Part shown: positions 147 to 7,676 of the stretch, piece by piece | Layout of the letters: every line of letters begins with the position of its first letter | Position numbering within the stretch: position 1 is the stretch's first letter | From: Elusimicrobia bacterium HGW-Elusimicrobia-3 | GTDB lineage: Bacteria; Elusimicrobiota; Elusimicrobia; Elusimicrobiales; UBA9959 | Direction of reading: 5' to 3' | Length of the DNA: 64,000 bases | Assembly (NCBI GenBank): GCA_002840355.1 | Contig: PHAL01000005.1 | Location: 60,929 to 124,928, forward strand | Notes under the pieces: model-generated | Told to the model about the DNA's origin: nothing | The model's database searches: none | The model's input: only the letters and a program-made list of their open reading frames with translations | Translations under genes and position numbers: made by a program

Positions 147-587
147 TTACTCCTCGGCGGCGCCGCCGCCGCAGGTCTGGACGCCGCGATTCTTGCAGCC
201 TTTCTTGCGCTCTTCTTCCTTCATCATCTCTATGATGTCCTGCACGGTCAGCCCCACCAGCCAGTGGTTCACCTCGGCGCGCAGCGTCTCATAAAGCCTG
301 TTGGGCACCTGGGCCTTTTCGGCCTTGGGCGCGCCGTTCACGGTAAAGGCCTCCATCAGCTGCCAGACGCTGATGCTGTCCAGGTCCTTGTGCAGGCGGT
401 AGCCGCGGCCTTTCTGCGACTCCACGAAGCCGGCGTGCACCAGGGCCTGCAGCACCTTGTTGCAGTACGGCGCGGGCAGGCCCTGGAAGCGCGAGATCTC
501 CGCCACCTGGTTCCAGCGGCCGCCGCCGTTCTGCCCGAGATAATGCAGGCAGGCCAGCCCGTATGCGAGAGTGCGGTTCATTCTCAT
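147..587 (-). CDS. Rrf2-family transcriptional regulator
   Basis: This 146-residue protein has the length and layout of Rrf2 regulators: an N-terminal winged helix with the typical wording TLAYGLACLHYLG, PAPYCNKVLQALVHAGFV and KGRGYRL, then a helical tail. IscR-type members bind an Fe-S cluster through three spaced Cys residues. Here only the C-terminal pair in CKNRGVQTC is visible, so cluster binding is uncertain. The start could be this ATG or the one two codons later. It is read from a good promoter about 130 nt upstream, and the leader holds a palindrome that could be its own operator. Confidence 0.85.
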   Translation of the reverse strand: MRMNRTLAYGLACLHYLGQNGGGRWNQVAEISRFQGLPAPYCNKVLQALVHAGFVESQKGRGYRLHKDLDSISVWQLMEAFTVNGAPKAEKAQVPNRLYETLRAEVNHWLVGLTVQDIIEMMKEEERKKGCKNRGVQTCGGGAAEE

Positions 588-760: not shown

Positions 761-1810
761 TCAGCCCCGGCCGTGCTTTTTTTTGAAAGCCGCAGCCATC
801 TCGCAAGCGGGCCGATTCGGGGCGAAAGCGTCCCCCTCCTCCAGCAGGCTTATGCCCGGGCAGCGGCTGCAGAATTCGATATCGGGACAGCCGGCGCAAT
901 CTTGCAGGTCCTTAAGGCCGGCCCGGCGCCATTTTTTCAGCCAAGCCGAGCCCTTCCACAGGGCAGAGAATTTCTGGCGGGCCAGGTTGCCCAGTTTGAC
1001 CGGCAGCTGCAGACAGGGAAACAGGGTTCCGGCAGGGTCTACAGCGCAGACATTGCGGCCGGCGCCGCACAGGAAATCCCAGGCGTCGGCGCTACCGGGA
1101 ACCGGGGCGGCGGGCCCCGCCTCCGCTCCGGACGGCGAAAGGTGTGACAGAGCCCGCCTCAACTCCGGGCCGGAGAGGCGGTATTTAAGGGCGGCCCTGT
1201 CTCCGTCGTTGGCCGGCGCTATGACGGGGTCGAAAGAGATGCCGCAGCCTTCTTTCCGGGCCAGGCGCTTCAAAAATGCCGCCTGCCCGGAGTTCAGGTT
1301 CATCAGCGGCACCTTTATCTTTACCGCTACCCCGGCCGCTTTGAGCAGGCGGGCGGCAGCCAGGCTGCCGCCAAAGGAACCTTTCAGGCCTGTGAGGCCG
1401 TCATGCACCTCCGGGCGGCCGTACAAGCTGATCTCGAATGCCGAAACTCCCGCCTGGCGGAATTCCCGGGCGCGGGCGGGCGTCAGGCCCAGGCCGGTGG
1501 AAAACACCCTGACGTCAAAACTCAATGATTTAGCGAACCGGCACAACTCGGCCAAGTCCGGCCGCAGCAGCGGCTCGCCCCCGGTGAAAACGAGGTAAAG
1601 CCCCCCGGCGCGGGCCAGTTGGCGCAGTATCTGCTCCCATTGGGCGGTGGAGAGTTCGCGGCCGGGGCGCGCGCGGCCGGCGGTTTCGGGCAGGTAGCAG
1701 TGGCGGCAGGAGAGCGGGCAGCGGCGGGTCAGTTCTACGGTAACCGAAATTGGAATATTTTTATCCAGCGTGAGCGCGTTGAGCCGCGCTGAAGGCAGGC
1801 AGTCGGGCAT
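761..1810 (-). CDS. Radical SAM/SPASM peptide maturase
   Basis: A 349-residue radical SAM enzyme with a C-terminal SPASM region. The [4Fe-4S]-SAM motif is C31-x3-C35-x2-C38 in RRCPLSCRHC, followed by the FTGGEPLLRPD segment typical of the family. The C-terminal third carries the SPASM cysteines (CGAGRNVCAVDPAGTLFPC, then CAGC, C, C and a last C), which bind auxiliary Fe-S clusters. Such proteins modify ribosomally made peptides, for example by thioether or C-C crosslinks. The longer open frame upstream is not used: the ATG at 1810 overlaps the stop of the peptidase gene as TGATG. It is the last gene of the PqqD/peptide cluster. The exact chemistry cannot be read from the sequence. Confidence 0.88.
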   Translation of the reverse strand: MPDCLPSARLNALTLDKNIPISVTVELTRRCPLSCRHCYLPETAGRARPGRELSTAQWEQILRQLARAGGLYLVFTGGEPLLRPDLAELCRFAKSLSFDVRVFSTGLGLTPARAREFRQAGVSAFEISLYGRPEVHDGLTGLKGSFGGSLAAARLLKAAGVAVKIKVPLMNLNSGQAAFLKRLARKEGCGISFDPVIAPANDGDRAALKYRLSGPELRRALSHLSPSGAEAGPAAPVPGSADAWDFLCGAGRNVCAVDPAGTLFPCLQLPVKLGNLARQKFSALWKGSAWLKKWRRAGLKDLQDCAGCPDIEFCSRCPGISLLEEGDAFAPNRPACEMAAAFKKKHGRG

Positions 1811-2133
1811 CAGTTGAAGGGATTGGCGGCGTACAAGGCGCGCCGCAGCCTGGCGTACCACAGACCCGGCAAGCCTGCGGCCAGCGGACCGCCGCCGAGC
1901 ACCGTGCCCCGCACCTCGGCCCAGGAGACATAGTGCGGTTCCAGCCGTCCGGCGTCGTCCACGAACACGGCGCCGCCCGGGCAAACCTCGGCCACCCGGT
2001 GCAGCAGATTGCGTCCGCCGTAGACATAGACCGCGCAATCCCCGGCGCCGGGGCGCCCCGGGGCCACGGCCACGGCCTGCCCCGGACGGAACAGGGGCAG
2101 CATGCTGGAGCCTTCCAACCTGAATACCTTCAT
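1810..2133 (-). CDS. S24/S26-type peptidase, Ser-His (SipW-like) form
   Basis: A 107-residue protein with the core of S26 signal peptidases: the nucleophile motif EGSSMLP (Ser10 before Met11) near the N-terminus and a second conserved box NLLHRV (His45). Bacterial type I peptidases use Lys in the second box; archaeal, ER and SipW-type enzymes use His, as here. No membrane anchor is evident in the first 20 residues, unlike export signal peptidases, so a soluble cytoplasmic protease is likely. The ATG overlaps the stop of the small peptide gene (TGATG), which points to a role in cleaving that peptide's leader. The start at 2133 is preferred over the upstream one because of this coupling. Confidence 0.7.
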   Translation of the reverse strand: MKVFRLEGSSMLPLFRPGQAVAVAPGRPGAGDCAVYVYGGRNLLHRVAEVCPGGAVFVDDAGRLEPHYVSWAEVRGTVLGGGPLAAGLPGLWYARLRRALYAANPFN

Positions 2134-2270
2134 CAGGAAAATTTCTTCAGGGATTTGCAGGCCAGCTGGCTGATAGGGCCGGTGATGCATTTGCCGCAGG
2201 CCAGCGCCGCGGTCTCGAAGATCTTCTCGGTCTTCATGGCGGGCTTCGCGTAGGTTTTTTTCTTCTTCAT
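2133..2270 (-). CDS. Putative RiPP precursor peptide, three Cys, C-terminal Ser
   Basis: A 45-codon gene fills the space between the PqqD-like and peptidase genes. The product has a Lys-rich start, a YAKP motif at residues 7-10, an acidic/hydrophobic stretch TEKIFETAALA, then C25-G-K-C28, C38 and a terminal Ser45. A YxxP motif is what PqqD-type recognition domains bind in several known leader peptides. The likely core is the CGKC-containing C-terminal 20 residues. GGAG lies 8 nt before the ATG at 2270; an ATG two codons earlier (2276) overlaps the PqqD stop and is the alternative. The size, Cys content and placement among maturation genes support a modified-peptide precursor. The final structure is unknown. 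Confidence 0.75.
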   Translation of the reverse strand: MKKKKTYAKPAMKTEKIFETAALACGKCITGPISQLACKSLKKFS

Positions 2271-2272
2271 AT

Positions 2273-2539
2273 TCATTTCTCCGCTTTGGCTATCAGTCCG
2301 GCGGCCAGCAGTTCTTTGATAAAGGCCGCCGTGTCGGCCGCGGCGGCAGAGGCGTCTATATCGTACTCGGCCGCGATGGCGGCGGCTATGGCCGCTTCGT
2401 CCCTGCCGGCGGCCAGGCCTTCCCAGACCAGGGCCGCTGCGCCGTTAAGTTCGTGCATCCTGGAGCCGGCGGCGTCCACGATGAACAATTCCCCGGCTAT
2501 GCGCCGGAAGGCGAGGTCTTTTCTCAGTATAAGCTTCAT
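2273..2539 (-). CDS. PqqD-like peptide recognition protein
   Basis: An 88-residue PqqD-family protein. Its pattern is a short beta-strand start (KLILRKDLAFRRIAGELFIVDAAGSRMHELNGAAALVWEGLAAG) followed by a helical bundle, the shape of a RiPP precursor recognition element. Proteins of this kind hold the leader peptide and present it to a radical SAM partner. It is joined by ATGA overlaps to the kinase gene before it and, depending on the start used, to the precursor gene after it. Function is inferred from family and context. Confidence 0.8.
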   Translation of the reverse strand: MKLILRKDLAFRRIAGELFIVDAAGSRMHELNGAAALVWEGLAAGRDEAAIAAAIAAEYDIDASAAAADTAAFIKELLAAGLIAKAEK

Positions 2540-3345
2540 ACCAACTCCAGGAAAGCGGCGTCCTTTTTAGAAAATTCCAGGCTGGCAAAAGAAATTTTAC
2601 CCAGCAGCGCGGCGGCGTTGTTCAGCACCAGGGACGAGATATCCCGACCTTTTTCAAAATTCAGCAGGCAGCGCAGCAGCAACTTCAGGGCCTCGCTCCC
2701 GCCGCAGGGGGCAACCCTGTTCCCCCTGCTCTTCTTAAGCAGGTATATCCCGCCCAGCGGCCAGGAACCCGGCCGCCCGTCCGCGCGCATTTCGCCCCAG
2801 AACGGCGAACCGTGTACCGTGTAACGACCACCCTCCCGGCGCAGCAAATTAATCTCGTCGCTGATAACTTCGCAACCGGAGCCGGCGGCCAATTTGGAAA
2901 GCGTGGATTTGCCCGCCCCGGACCGGCCCAGGAACAGGTAAGCCCTGCCCTTTTTCACCAGGCCGGCGGAGTGAAGCATAAAACCGCCCGAGCGCAGCAG
3001 CAAACTGCTTATCAAAGACCGCAGGAAAGCGTCCAGGCATTGCTCGTAGGGGGCGGCCGAGAGTTCTCCGGCCCCGGAGCGCAGGTCCAGGGCGGCTGAA
3101 AAGTCCCCGCGCTTCAGTTCCAGCCTGTTGTCTCTTAAAAGAACCGCCGGCCTGAAGGGGGACTCCCTGCCGGGCGCCTCCCGCACGCTGAACCTTGGCC
3201 CGCGTGCCGCGCGGCAGGCGAAACGGCCATACCTGCCCTTCAAAACAGAAATGATACCAGGCGAGTCCGATTCAAAACCCAGCCCGAAACCGCCAATGGC
3301 CAGCTTCAGTGAGGCGGCGCGAACCGCTACAGGCCGGACGGCCAC
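2536..3345 (-). CDS. HPr-kinase-like protein of a RiPP cluster
   Basis: A 269-residue protein with a Walker A loop GRSGAGKST at about residues 140-148, followed by an ISDE segment, as in HPr kinase/phosphorylase C-terminal domains. The N-terminal 120 residues resemble the poorly conserved front part of HprK-like proteins found in peptide clusters. In lasso peptide clusters such as paeninodin, a homologous kinase phosphorylates the C-terminal Ser of the precursor; the neighbouring peptide here also ends in Ser. It starts with GTG 18 bp inside the preceding pilin-like gene, with a GAGG site upstream, so its translation is coupled to that gene. A regulatory HPr kinase is unlikely: no PTS genes are nearby. 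Confidence 0.72.
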   Translation of the reverse strand: MAVRPVAVRAASLKLAIGGFGLGFESDSPGIISVLKGRYGRFACRAARGPRFSVREAPGRESPFRPAVLLRDNRLELKRGDFSAALDLRSGAGELSAAPYEQCLDAFLRSLISSLLLRSGGFMLHSAGLVKKGRAYLFLGRSGAGKSTLSKLAAGSGCEVISDEINLLRREGGRYTVHGSPFWGEMRADGRPGSWPLGGIYLLKKSRGNRVAPCGGSEALKLLLRCLLNFEKGRDISSLVLNNAAALLGKISFASLEFSKKDAAFLELV

Positions 3346-4613
3346 TCGGCTTTGACCTCGTACCAGGAGTGCAGTTTTATGTTGACGCCCTGTATCAGTA
3401 TGTCCCTGGCCACGTTGTCGTCGTAGTATATGCCCATGGTCGAAGTGCCCATCGTGGCGTCCTGATTGCTGAGCAGCACGCCGTTGATATTGCAGTTGCC
3501 GCCGCCCTGCAGCCCCTGGCTGCCTCCGGTATAAGCGAAACCGTGTATAAGCACGTTATCCAGCTCGTACTCCAGGTTATTGGCGACATAGTTGCCGCTC
3601 ACGGCGGCGGCCCAAGTGGCGGGGGCGGCGGCGTCGAAAGCCTGGTAATGCGCCCAGTTATTGCCGTATTCCTTCCAGGCTTCCGGGGGCACTTTGGCGT
3701 CATAATTGCCGTCCGCGCCGCCGCTGCCTGAAATGATGAAATTCCCGAGCATTATCATAGTGCCGCGGATGAAGTTGCCCCCGCCGCCGCTCTGGAAGGT
3801 GACGTCCCCGGTTATATAGTAGGTGCGGTTGCTGGTGTCGTTGCAGCCTTTGAACTCGGCGTTGCCGATATGGTAATAGGTGGAGGAGTTGCCGTTGCCG
3901 CAGCCGTTGGGGGCCCCTCCCAGAGCCAGGTCGCTGGCCTGGGCGGAACTGAGGTAGGTGGAGAATTTTATCTTGGGGAACTGCGGGATCTCGTAATAGG
4001 ACCACCAGTAGACATTGTCGGTAGAGGCCGAGGTGGAACCGCCGTCCTGCGGGGTCACGTGGCCGGCGCTGTAATAGCGCGGGAAGGTGCGGCCGGTGGC
4101 GTCGATGGAGTTGCCGGAGATGACCGGCCCCCATTCTATGTGGTCGTTACCGCCGGTATTGGAGACCATGTTGGCGGCGCGGGTGGCGAAGTCGGCCGCG
4201 TTGTCGTTGCGCAGCACGGCCCGTATGCGGCGCAGCTGCGCCCCGGTCCTGTCCCGGCCCACGGACTCCACCACGCGCATATCCGCGTCCACCGGGTGGG
4301 AGGTGATCTGGATGGTGTAGGTGCCGCCGCTTTCGGCGGAGTAAACCTGGTCGAAATTATAGCCGGCGATAGTCCCGGTGCCGGTCATGATCCACATGTC
4401 GTCGCTCTCGAGCAGCTTCCAGCGCGCCCTGTCCACGCCGGCCTCGGCCAGGTGGAAAGCCGTGGTGGATTTCTTTTCCTTCACCGACCACCTGCCCTCG
4501 TTCTGCACGAACAGGTCCATCACCGGGAACATCAGCATCAGGAACAGCAGGATACTGATGACCATAGAGATGGCCATCTGCCCGGCGCGCCGCGGCGAGA
4601 GGGTTTTTTTCAT
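3327..4613 (-). CDS. PilX-like pilus assembly protein
   Basis: A 428-residue protein whose N-terminus matches the PilX/GspK-like pattern: a short basic stretch, GQMAISMVISILLFLMLMFPVMDLF as a hydrophobic helix, then AFHLAEAGVDRARWKL. Class III peptidase cleavage after Gly is possible, but the usual Glu at position +5 is missing, as in GspK/PilX minor pilins. The rest is rich in Gly, Asn and Ser and looks like a beta-rich extracellular domain. It follows two pilin-like genes with 2-4 bp spacing and overlaps the kinase gene after it. It probably forms part of a minor pilin or pseudopilin tip complex. Confidence 0.72.
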   Translation of the reverse strand: MKKTLSPRRAGQMAISMVISILLFLMLMFPVMDLFVQNEGRWSVKEKKSTTAFHLAEAGVDRARWKLLESDDMWIMTGTGTIAGYNFDQVYSAESGGTYTIQITSHPVDADMRVVESVGRDRTGAQLRRIRAVLRNDNAADFATRAANMVSNTGGNDHIEWGPVISGNSIDATGRTFPRYYSAGHVTPQDGGSTSASTDNVYWWSYYEIPQFPKIKFSTYLSSAQASDLALGGAPNGCGNGNSSTYYHIGNAEFKGCNDTSNRTYYITGDVTFQSGGGGNFIRGTMIMLGNFIISGSGGADGNYDAKVPPEAWKEYGNNWAHYQAFDAAAPATWAAAVSGNYVANNLEYELDNVLIHGFAYTGGSQGLQGGGNCNINGVLLSNQDATMGTSTMGIYYDDNVARDILIQGVNIKLHSWYEVKAEWPSGL

Positions 4614-4615
4614 AA

Positions 4616-5143
4616 TCAGTTCATTATCCTGACTTTTTCCACGGCCATCTGCAGCGCCTTGGTGCCGCCCTCGTAGGTGGCCTTCTCGAAGGTGATGGAG
4701 ATGGAGATGATCCCGTCGTCGTCCGTGCGCGGGTAGGTGAAGGCGATGTAGCGCAGGTGGTTGGCTATCAGCTTGCCCGTGAGCATGTTGCCGTCCACAT
4801 CGCCGGCCGCCTGGTAAAGCTGGGTCCCCTGCTGGTAGTAGAACGCCCAGCTCTGACCACCCGAGGAGTTATATTTTTTGAATTTTATGCGGGAATGCGG
4901 CGGCTGGCCGGGCAACTCGTCCACCTCTATGGTGTGGCCCAGGGCCTGCCGCAGGTCGCGGTTGATGTTGGCCAGAGCGCCGCGCGCGTTCTTCTGTATC
5001 TCCACCCTGGCCGTCAGCAGCTGCACGAACTGGAAGGTCTTGATGAAGGTGCGCGGCGCGGCGAGGATGAGCACGCCCAGGATGGCGACGACGAGCATCA
5101 TCTCCATCAGCGTATAACCGCGCTTTAGTTTCCGGTCTTTCAT
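4616..5143 (-). CDS. Minor pilin/pseudopilin with prepilin signal (PilW/GspJ-like)
   Basis: A 175-residue protein with a class III signal peptide: KLKRG followed by YTLMEMMLVVAILGVLILAAP, with the conserved Glu at +5 after the cleavage Gly9. This helix packs into the pilus core after cleavage by PilD. The segment after it (ARVEIQKNARGALANINRDLRQAL) resembles PilW and GspJ minor pilins. It lies between two other pilin-like genes in one operon. No PilB, PilC or PilD genes are in the window, so the assembly machine must be encoded elsewhere. Confidence 0.82.
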   Translation of the reverse strand: MKDRKLKRGYTLMEMMLVVAILGVLILAAPRTFIKTFQFVQLLTARVEIQKNARGALANINRDLRQALGHTIEVDELPGQPPHSRIKFKKYNSSGGQSWAFYYQQGTQLYQAAGDVDGNMLTGKLIANHLRYIAFTYPRTDDDGIISISITFEKATYEGGTKALQMAVEKVRIMN

Positions 5144-5147
5144 AGCG

Positions 5148-7676
5148 TCACCAGCTGAAATCCCTGACCACCGTCTGTCCCGGGGTCACCGCCACGCCGA
5201 GGGCCTGCTTGGGCACGATGCTGGGTGTCGAGCCGCTCCAGGTGGTGTACCAGGCGTAAACGTTGTAGGTGTAGCCGCCTTTTACGGGTATATTGTAGTT
5301 GCCCAGCGCGCTGCTGGAAGCGGCATAGTAGACCCCGGTGCCGGCGCGCAGGGCGGGCGTTATGTCCGGGGGATAGGAGCCGGCGCCCAGCGTGGCGGTG
5401 GTCACGTAGATCAGCACTCCGGTGGATATGGGCCGTCCGGCCCCGTTGGTCACGCTGCCGGTGACGTAGCCGAAAGCGCCGGTCACGCTGAAAGTGGAGG
5501 AAAAGGCCGTTTCGCCCGCGGCCACGGTCACCGTGGTGCTGGACGGCGACGACGCCTCGCCGGCCTCCAGCTGCGGCACCACCACGTAGGTGCCGGTGGA
5601 GATGCCCGAGCCCGAGATCGTGAAATAGCCTTCGTCGTCGCTGATGCCGTTGCCCTGCTCCACGTCGTCCTTGATGCCCACCACCGGGATGCCCGGCAGC
5701 GGGTCCACGCCGTTGGTGGTCACGCGGCCGCTGATCCTGCCGCCGTAATAAAGCGTAAAATCCACGCCCTGAGCCACCTCGCCCAGTTCCACGCTGACGC
5801 CCATGGAAGAGAGCTCCACGTAGCTGGGGCTCTGGCTCTGGTAGTTGGCCACCACCGTTATCACCCCAGTGGCCACCGGCAGCGTGTACCTGCCGGAGGA
5901 ATTGGTGTTGACCTGCTCGCTGCCGGCCGAGAACATCTTGATGCCGGGCAGGGCCGTGCCGGCGGTATTGAGCACCAGGCCGGTGACATAGCCGTAGATC
6001 GTCTCGGTGGACAGGCGTATATCCCCGGCGTTGACCACGAAACCGTTGGAAACCCCTCCGTCCACGGTAACGCTGGAGAAGGACAGGCCGGTGGAGGCGT
6101 AGACCGTCCAGGCGCCGGTGGAGACGTTGGTGAGGTTGAAGTTGCCGCCGGAATCGGCGCTCACCGGAGTGGAAAGGCCGTCGTCGGCGAACACCAGCGC
6201 CCCCGCCGCGGGGGTGCCGGAATTGCAGGCCTCGGTCTGGGCCGAGTTGTGCGGCAGGCTGGAGAAAGGCCTGGCTCCGGCAAAGTCGTCGTTGTTGTCA
6301 TTGGAATCGTAGCAGCGGCCCAGGCCGGGTGTCACGCCAGAAGATGTGGTCTTGCGGGTATAGGCCTCGCCGGGTTCGAAACCGATGGACTGCGCTATGG
6401 CTTCCCCCTCGAAGCTTTCTGCAAGCTGCTTGCCGCCAATGCCGTTGTTGGAGGCGTTCCAGCCCAACGTGTCGTACACAGGTGAGGCCGCCGCCCCGCG
6501 GAGCACTACGTAACCGGCCGGGCTGGGGCTGCCCGTAAGGATGACGTCGTCCTGGTTGGCCCAGTTGGAATCTCTGTCATAGACAGCGTCGGCCTGCAGC
6601 GTTACGCCGGCCGCCGTGACCGTGCCGGTATTGGCGAAGATGAAATAGCCGTTCGGGGCCAGGCTGACGGCGCGGTAATCGATATCCGGGAGTATCAGTA
6701 CTGCCGCCGACTCTTTATAGGCGAAACGCACCAGCTCGTTGGCGCCGGTGCCCAGGCCGGTGGCCATCGTCCAGGTCCAGGTGGTGGGGTTATACACTTC
6801 CACCCATTCCGTATTGCCGGTGGCGGTGGCCGTGCTGCCCACTATCTGGCTGATCACCAGGTGGTCGGTAACGTAGAGTTTCCCGATCACGGTGCCGCTG
6901 GACATCTGCGTCAGCGTGAAATTCTCGTCCGGGGAGGTCTCGCCGGGGGCCAGGCTGAACTGCGGCAGCGTGCCGGGGAACCAGCCGTCCTTGACGGCCA
7001 GCAGCGTGTAGCTGCCGCCCTCGATGGAGAAATTGTAGTAGCCGGCCGCGTCGGTCTCGCCGTACATCGAGGGCCGTTCCTGCGCGCGCACCACCACGCC
7101 CGCCACCGGCACGTTGAGCGAGTCCTTCACGTAGCCCTTGATGACCGAGGTTTTATTGATACGGGCCGGGTTTTCGCGGAGGTTGGTGACCTCCAGTTTG
7201 CGCCATTCGCCGCGCTCGTACCAGGCCACGATAACCTTGATCTCCTTGAGGCCGGTATCGGGGTCGTTCCAGTTCAGATAGGTCAGGTCGCCGCCGGCGT
7301 TCTCGTTGACCTTGCGGATGAGCACCCTGCGGGTGAAGTTGAGGCCGCCGACGTTCACCACCTCCTCCCCGTTCGGGGCGTGGTCGTAGACCATCGGGGG
7401 GGTGAAGTTGGTGTCGGCGGGCACGGTCTGCGTGGTCACCAGCACCCTGTAATAGGAACGGTTCTTCAGGTACTCCACCCGCTCCTGCGCTATATTGTTG
7501 GCCAGCGATCGGGTCTTGGCCGACTGTACGCCCACGTTGAAATACTTGAAGGCGCCCACCATGCCCAGCACGCCCACGGACATGATGACCATGGCCACCA
7601 TCAGCTCCACCAGCGTGATGCCGGGGCGCGACGGGGCCCGGGAGGCCGCGGTTCTGGTTGCAGTGTGTTTTTCCAT
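5148..7676 (-). CDS. Large minor pilin with carboxypeptidase-regulatory-like and lamin-tail-like domains
   Basis: An 842-residue protein with a prepilin signal: RPG19 then ITLVELMVAMVIMSVGVLG, Glu at +5. After a PilV-like region (about 20-170) come beta-sandwich modules: a carboxypeptidase-regulatory-like domain at about 178-255, a lamin-tail-like domain at about 272-420 (NTEWVEVYNP), and several further regulatory-like domains to the C-terminus, with recurrent GxVxxxxGxPxxGV wording. Ordinary PilV proteins have 150-250 residues, so this is a pilin fused to a long surface stalk. It is the first gene of the pilin/RiPP operon. A tip adhesin role is likely but inferred. Confidence 0.78.
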   Translation of the reverse strand: MEKHTATRTAASRAPSRPGITLVELMVAMVIMSVGVLGMVGAFKYFNVGVQSAKTRSLANNIAQERVEYLKNRSYYRVLVTTQTVPADTNFTPPMVYDHAPNGEEVVNVGGLNFTRRVLIRKVNENAGGDLTYLNWNDPDTGLKEIKVIVAWYERGEWRKLEVTNLRENPARINKTSVIKGYVKDSLNVPVAGVVVRAQERPSMYGETDAAGYYNFSIEGGSYTLLAVKDGWFPGTLPQFSLAPGETSPDENFTLTQMSSGTVIGKLYVTDHLVISQIVGSTATATGNTEWVEVYNPTTWTWTMATGLGTGANELVRFAYKESAAVLILPDIDYRAVSLAPNGYFIFANTGTVTAAGVTLQADAVYDRDSNWANQDDVILTGSPSPAGYVVLRGAAASPVYDTLGWNASNNGIGGKQLAESFEGEAIAQSIGFEPGEAYTRKTTSSGVTPGLGRCYDSNDNNDDFAGARPFSSLPHNSAQTEACNSGTPAAGALVFADDGLSTPVSADSGGNFNLTNVSTGAWTVYASTGLSFSSVTVDGGVSNGFVVNAGDIRLSTETIYGYVTGLVLNTAGTALPGIKMFSAGSEQVNTNSSGRYTLPVATGVITVVANYQSQSPSYVELSSMGVSVELGEVAQGVDFTLYYGGRISGRVTTNGVDPLPGIPVVGIKDDVEQGNGISDDEGYFTISGSGISTGTYVVVPQLEAGEASSPSSTTVTVAAGETAFSSTFSVTGAFGYVTGSVTNGAGRPISTGVLIYVTTATLGAGSYPPDITPALRAGTGVYYAASSSALGNYNIPVKGGYTYNVYAWYTTWSGSTPSIVPKQALGVAVTPGQTVVRDFSW

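Follow-up and report, generated by a model that had tools for sequence, protein, structure and literature searches.

What kind of product is encoded by five tightly packed genes on the minus strand at positions 761-3345 of the analysed DNA of Elusimicrobia bacterium HGW-Elusimicrobia-3? The stretch (the window, 64,000 nt, to which all coordinates refer) belongs to an Elusimicrobiota genome that is 97% complete. The set comprises an HprK-like kinase (2536..3345, 269 aa, GTG start), a stand-alone PqqD-type recognition element of the kind known from ribosomally synthesized and post-translationally modified peptides (RiPPs) (2273..2539, 88 aa), a precursor peptide, MKKKKTYAKPAMKTEKIFETAALACGKCITGPISQLACKSLKKFS (2133..2270, 45 aa, or 47 aa if the start is the in-frame ATG at 2276), an S26-like peptidase of the SipW/Sec11 type (1810..2133, 107 aa), and a radical S-adenosylmethionine (SAM)/SPASM enzyme (761..1810, 349 aa). 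The analysis indicated a conserved RiPP cluster with a three-cysteine precursor on which three enzymes probably act: the radical SAM enzyme would introduce cross-links, the HprK-like kinase would phosphorylate the terminal serine, and a Ser-His-Asp peptidase would remove the leader. This chemistry and the function are predicted from the observed gene set, its conservation, the catalytic residues, and the terminal serine.

The original prediction, which was made from the sequence of the window, had described these five overlapping genes, and all of the reading frames were confirmed, each overlapping or abutting the next. At two of the junctions a TGATG joins the genes, so that the stop codon of the peptide overlaps the start of the peptidase and the stop codon of the peptidase overlaps the start of the radical SAM gene. 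The YAKP motif (2241..2252), the CGKC motif (2187..2198), and the third cysteine (2157..2159) of the peptide were likewise found as described. An alignment of 29 distinct relatives of the peptide contained 18 invariant columns, which in the 47-residue numbering are K6, Y9, K11, P12, E17, F20, E21, A23, A24, L25, A26, C27, K29, C30, G33, Q37, C40, and S47. Because the same gene set is kept in related genomes and the peptide retains these columns, the five-gene arrangement is more than chance, and the set is a RiPP-type cluster with a real, conserved peptide gene, as had been proposed. At own-family loci with a PqqD match and sequence beyond it, the same type of peptide followed PqqD; the exception was L008 (contig G041), where neither such a peptide nor an S26 gene was present after PqqD. 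Within the genome, Pfam PqqD matched the recognition protein (7.6e-17) and no other; this protein also matched lasso_PqqD_Strm (3.6e-12), below the cut-off. Residues Y9 and P12 of the YxxP leader motif were unchanged in 29/29 relatives and in 18/18 deep relatives. A YxxP motif together with a PqqD protein that stands alone is consistent with a recognition-element system, in agreement with the original prediction; the PqqD-type protein would bind the YxKP leader and pass the peptide to the enzymes.

A search of 340 genomes of the phylum matched the peptide in 56 of them. When read, the matches in G109 and G127 turned out to be spurious, which left 54/340 genomes, of which 36 belong to the family of the window (36/59 genomes) and 18 to distant families and classes. 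Similar peptides beside PqqD/radical SAM pairs in related genomes, on which the original prediction had made its assignment depend, were therefore present. All of the 54 peptide loci had an S26-like match (the weakest, in G330, with 28 bits), 53 had a PqqD-type gene, 50 had a radical SAM gene, and 49 had a kinase; because these loci also supplied the sequences for the profiles, presence is in part built in. Among the loci, L114 duplicates L038, L104 duplicates L044, and some others repeat genomes counted under G labels. The radical SAM gene was not nearby in G031, G032, G034, and G239, being located on another contig in G032 and G239. The gene order was HprK-PqqD-peptide-S26-rSAM in the window's own family and HprK-PqqD-rSAM-peptide-S26 in the distant lineages, with the same gene set. 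One peptide copy was found in 53/54 genomes. The genome G011 carried two copies of the cluster (L099 and L100), the second of which had no adjacent kinase and a peptide still ending in serine.

The core of the peptide was compared in 219 distinct homologues, which combine the best 120 of 1237 and the best 120 of 434 matches from two database searches; the counts given below for homologues refer to this list. An LxCxxC motif and exactly three core cysteines were present in 219/219, and the last cysteine lay exactly seven residues from the end in 215/219. The C-terminal residue (2136..2138 in the window) was serine in 218/219 and threonine in none. The sole other ending was the glutamine of P0333, a short peptide from a 1-kb contig, which may be truncated. 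Position -3 was lysine or arginine in 206/219. Apart from the terminal serine, no hydroxyl residue of the core was near-invariant; the next commonest position for serine or threonine was -6, with 70%. In addition, 18/18 deep-branching peptides ended in serine despite divergent cores and widely differing preceding residues. The lists hold best matches ranked by profile score, and peptides without the serine would rank slightly lower; this bias on the count is judged small because the serine is one column of about 45.

The near-invariance of the C-terminal serine makes sense of the presence of a kinase. The kinase matched the NCBIfam profiles ScmC, HprK_rel_A, and HprK_rel_B with values from 3.1e-8 to 3.8e-6, all below the curated cut-offs. 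Its AlphaFold model (predicted local distance difference test, pLDDT, 95.6) matched phosphoenolpyruvate carboxykinase (1.7e-7) and HPr kinase (3.5e-4) in Foldseek, and the HprK assignment was made because of these profiles and the predicted fold. Residues R109, H125, G145, K146, D163, E164, and F182 were invariant in 46 sequences. An HprK-like gene was present anywhere in the genome in 52/54 peptide genomes vs 16/286 others (E 1e-8). In the two kinase-less genomes, G010 and G013, the contig starts at the expected place of the gene; in G006, G239, and G328 the kinase was present and unlinked. HprK homologues of the paeninodin type phosphorylate a C-terminal serine and are largely indifferent to the remainder of the peptide (PMC8498205). 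The conservation of the terminal serine is what would be expected if the kinase of the window acted in the same way. The HprK-like kinase would then phosphorylate the terminal serine of the precursor, a pattern that appears to fit the paeninodin precedent and not that of LppK, the kinase of linear polyphosphorylated peptides (LPPs), which is discussed below.

The radical SAM enzyme contained the Radical_SAM (1.9e-21) and SPASM (5.5e-8) domains. Hits covering <85% of the profile and exact duplicates were left out of the homologue sets of the cluster proteins. The CxxxCxxC motif was kept in 51-53 of 53 sequences, the SPASM-type cysteines 243, 261, 300, 303, 309, and 312 in 52-53 of 53, and Cys 331 in 47/53. 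The best solved relatives of the profile were SkfB (6.1e-35) and PqqE (2.3e-33), followed by the radical SAM protein 5WGG, which we take to be CteB. The enzyme scored below the cut-off for each of the 25 NCBIfam families among the matches listed, including SkfB (74 bits, cut-off 300), StsB (61/625), PapB (46/340), and AlbA (50/850). Given SkfB and PqqE as the closest solved relatives, a thioether or carbon-carbon (C-C) cross-link is plausible; the enzyme would form one or more cross-links in the core, for which cysteine thioethers are the preferred prediction.

The peptidase belongs to a family whose profile found human SEC11A (4.4e-8), SEC11C, and then bacterial signal peptidases as the best solved relatives. 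At E 0.01 or better, 33/45 of the homologues matched Peptidase_S24 and 6/45 matched Peptidase_S26; judged from these sequence comparisons, the S26 assignment is firm for the family and weak for the window protein alone. The putative nucleophile was serine in 40/49 and cysteine in 9/49 sequences, and His45, Arg46, and Asp60 were invariant (49/49). The peptidases with a cysteine nucleophile (L077, L078, L081, L084, L085, L086, L087, L088, and L091) provide a natural example of Ser/Cys exchange in a fold like that of signal peptidases. Signal peptidases carry an N-terminal membrane segment, which the window protein lacks. They also cut after a small-x-small sequence, a rule to which ALA|C in the precursor (2198/2199) conforms. 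The motif before the xxLxC stretch was FET in 155/219, IET in 33/219, and FEQ in 10/219 homologues. In the LPP system, as far as the main text of its report goes, the leader is cut after FET, and the peptidase LppS requires Ser, His, Asp, and the recognition protein, with cleavage lowered by mutation of Phe-Glu-Thr at the leader end (PMC13381572). Because the precursors carry FET, IET, FEQ, or similar motifs at this place, a cut after the FET-like motif (after the T of 2211..2219) is preferred. By this analogy, the S26-like peptidase would most likely remove the leader at that site and otherwise at ALA|C, giving a product of 25 or 21 residues, respectively.

The original prediction had further stated that the cluster is not a lasso peptide cluster and that no described class has exactly this gene set. 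The former was borne out, because Transglut_core3 (PF13471) had no match in the whole 97% complete genome (a control search matched 2/14 genomes) and the five matches of Asn_synthase (PF00733) were all on contigs other than that of the cluster. Resemblance to the paeninodin-type lasso peptides nevertheless exists: they share an HPr-kinase homologue and a stand-alone B1 recognition protein (PMC8498205), and in the cluster an HprK homologue accompanies a precursor whose last residue is serine. In the same source, kinase-bearing lasso precursors of two phyla are described as having little in common except the C-terminal serine (PMC8498205). The differences are that the genome lacks a B2-type protease, the contig lacks an Asn-synthase-like cyclase, and a radical SAM enzyme is present instead; moreover, the recognition proteins of paeninodin are described as favouring a tryptophan leader motif (PMC13381572, main text), whereas tyrosine is found here.

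The latter claim was supported. In a search of the open-licence literature, which for the LPP report covered the main text, no paper with this exact gene set was found, nor a joint report of radical SAM cross-linking and HprK-type RiPP phosphorylation, nor one on a radical SAM RiPP of Elusimicrobia. A kinase, a recognition protein, and a SipW-type peptidase are core parts of the LPPs of Bacillota, published in 2026 (PMC13381572, main text). The features in common are the HprK-like kinase, the stand-alone recognition protein, the SipW-type Ser/His/Asp peptidase, the YxxP leader, and FET ahead of the core. Compared with the LPP leader YxxPxVLxHQxIxFETxxS, the precursors studied here have YxKP and FET two residues closer, and the H-Q part is absent. 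The C-termini of LPPs are reported to be highly variable, with phosphorylation at Ser3 of the core (PMC13381572), whereas a fixed three-cysteine core ending in serine was observed here. LPP clusters are also described with a nucleotidyltransferase (NTP transferase) and an MsbA-like exporter (PMC13381572), neither of which occurs on the contig of the cluster; PF14907 matched once in the genome, on a different contig, where an unlinked NTP_transf_5 protein lies at G000:C71:10208-10765. The main text describes LPPs as restricted to Bacillota, and the terms "radical SAM" and "Elusimicrob" are absent from it (PMC13381572). The cluster was not filed as an LPP cluster because the NTP transferase and the ATP-binding cassette (ABC) exporter are off the contig and core residue 3 is not serine. 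It probably works like an LPP cluster with an added cross-linking enzyme. Unlike in LPPs, the kinase, recognition protein, and peptidase here accompany a radical SAM enzyme and a three-cysteine core that is fixed. The near-invariant C-terminal serine, the SipW/Sec11-type Ser-His-Asp peptidase, the LPP kinship, the spread across the phylum, and the giant neighbours described below go beyond the original prediction. If the proposed chemistry is correct, the cluster unites radical SAM cross-linking and HprK-type phosphorylation, and the SipW-type leader peptidase, published for Bacillota, is extended to another phylum with a different core.

Two other comparisons were made. The SynChlorMet cassette (NCBIfam TIGR04248-04251) includes ScmC, which the kinase matched best among the NCBIfam profiles (3.1e-8), with PqqD and radical SAM/SPASM partners; however, the cassette names two radical SAM enzymes, ScmE and ScmF, compared with one here, and no cut-off was reached (ScmC 33.3 bits against 125, ScmD 12.7 against 100, ScmE 83.7 against 400, and ScmF 62.8 against 400). 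The maturases of sactipeptides and ranthipeptides and PqqE share the radical SAM and SPASM domains, but the cluster differs from them in its separate recognition protein and in the added kinase and S26-like peptidase.

The rates of evolution and the neighbourhood bear on the possible role of the peptide. The median nonsynonymous divergence (dN) from the window was 0.118 for the peptide (27 partners), 0.264 for the radical SAM enzyme (23), 0.348 for PqqD (27), 0.354 for HprK (25 values), and 0.404 for S26 (27). The peptide is the slowest-evolving and most conserved protein of the cluster, with low dN and clear synonymous change; a single synthetic operon would consequently probe much of the family. 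In 28/38 loci with at least 3.5 kb of flank, the peptide was followed downstream by a giant protein (at least 630 aa, most extending off the fetched stretch); this count takes in L084, while L078 and L080, with a flank of <3.5 kb, also have a giant neighbour and were not counted. By eye, most of the giant proteins begin with a signal-like segment, although L035 and L037 do not clearly do so. In the genome of the window, the giant frame encodes 3953 aa with fibronectin type III (fn3) repeats and a lamin-tail domain. It lies just beyond the window (G000:C41:49198-61059; L110, L115), and its last part looks frame-shifted, which may be real or an assembly error. In G239, the peptide, S26, and the giant protein are still together, and the kinase, PqqD, and radical SAM genes are on a separate contig. 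Because the peptide evolves slowly and giant, mostly secreted-looking proteins adjoin it, we favour a conserved function at the cell surface over that of a toxin, a circumstantial argument drawn from the neighbourhood. A conserved RiPP that does not resemble a toxin would lead one to ask which functions modified peptides serve on the surface of uncultured bacteria.

Several observations weigh against the proposal that the peptide is cross-linked, phosphorylated on its terminal serine, and cut by an S26-like peptidase. According to the main text of the LPP report, LppK phosphorylates Ser3 of the core and not the C-terminus (PMC13381572); therefore, such a kinase need not use a terminal serine. 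In G015, the locus L120 (3024-5282) encodes an HprK-like kinase, PqqD, and a radical SAM enzyme, with no S26 match on its 6.1-kb contig, and its peptide, which has YxKP, terminates in CNL and so runs counter to any general rule of terminal serine. The window peptidase alone matched Peptidase_S24 at 0.046-0.076, below the Pfam cut-off, and its AlphaFold model (pLDDT 94.1) gave no Foldseek match under 0.001. G031 (84% complete) and G034 (in which the locus stops at the contig end) had no clear radical SAM orthologue, the best scores being 171 and 165 bits, and the residues that would be cross-linked, if any, are only predicted. No ABC exporter was found on the contig of the cluster, the four ABC_membrane matches of the genome all lying elsewhere. 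Finally, 10/38 loci (L044, L085, L095, L097, L098, L099, L102, L108, L111, and L112) had no giant neighbour.

The LppK precedent and the G015 relative, which has a kinase without a terminal serine in the peptide, also speak for an LPP-like peptide that is modified by the radical SAM enzyme and whose terminal serine serves for recognition or attachment, while the kinase acts elsewhere, as LppK does on an internal serine (PMC13381572). The lysine or arginine at position -3 may mean docking. However, residue 3 after FET is leucine in the window peptide and not serine as in LPPs, the core has no other near-invariant serine or threonine, and the terminal serine is never replaced by threonine, which makes this explanation unlikely, though one to be taken seriously. 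We consider it rather unlikely that the three cysteines bind a metal or an iron-sulfur cluster and that the radical SAM reaction is a minor alteration (C-C, decarboxylation, or epimerisation), the product being a redox or metal cofactor peptide rather than a thioether peptide. The constant number of cysteines, the fixed distance of the last one from the end, and the slow evolution of the peptide would agree with such a product, as would the radical SAM profile, which matches PqqE nearly as well as SkfB; on the other hand, no cofactor-using enzyme was evident among the recurrent neighbour clusters, few of which are domain-annotated. A secreted bacteriocin or toxin would share the RiPP anatomy, and the closest solved profile relative is the maturase of the sporulation killing factor, but none of the other proteins of the cluster is as conserved as the peptide, which occurs in single copy in 53/54 genomes, and no ABC exporter is on the contig, so that this origin appears very improbable. 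Short open reading frames (ORFs) do arise by chance; nevertheless, the low dN with clear synonymous change, the residues conserved over the homologues, and the retention of the peptide despite the change in gene order leave a spurious ORF, with the enzymes acting on something else, scarcely any probability. The cross-linked peptide phosphorylated on its terminal serine therefore remains the reading that we favour.

A wider proposal is speculative, and we regard it as possible but doubtful: the cluster would define a new class of RiPP, in which a peptide cross-linked by a radical SAM enzyme carries a phospho-serine or polyphospho-serine cap at its C-terminus. Nearly unchanged across the phylum and made beside giant secreted and pilin-like proteins, this peptide would help to build the cell surface or would signal there, and it would not be a weapon. 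The pilin-like proteins belong to three upstream minus-strand neighbours outside the RiPP set (3327..7676). The genes at 4616-5143 and 5148-7676 are pilin-like and contain an N_methyl domain, and a profile search found no convincing domain in 3327-4613. Pilin-like genes recur upstream at related own-family loci. An Rrf2-type regulator (147..587, minus strand; Rrf2 2.5e-18), located between the cluster and the giant protein, is a recurrent neighbour as well.

In L075, L076, and L080, the S26 domain is in frame with the giant protein, and in L089 it is in frame with a BNR-repeat protein. The fused frames also contain a membrane or signal-like segment, so that peptidase and surface-type protein form one reading frame. 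In distant lineages (L075-L091), an HD-domain protein with an MRLSDILKK-like start precedes HprK and forms a 14-locus cluster, of which the L084 member is a different, non-adjacent protein.

Other clusters of the phylum combine HprK-like and PqqD genes with one to three radical SAM genes and different cysteine-rich precursors, namely L122 (G139), L123 (G213), L126 (G227), L127 (G189), L124 (G229), and L125 (G233). No candidate precursor was found at the clusters L124 and L125. The candidate precursors of L122, L123, L126, and L127 all end in serine. If the wider proposal is true, these related kinase, PqqD, and radical SAM clusters, with most of the peptides found ending in serine, would point to a wider superfamily of phospho-capped, cross-linked peptides.

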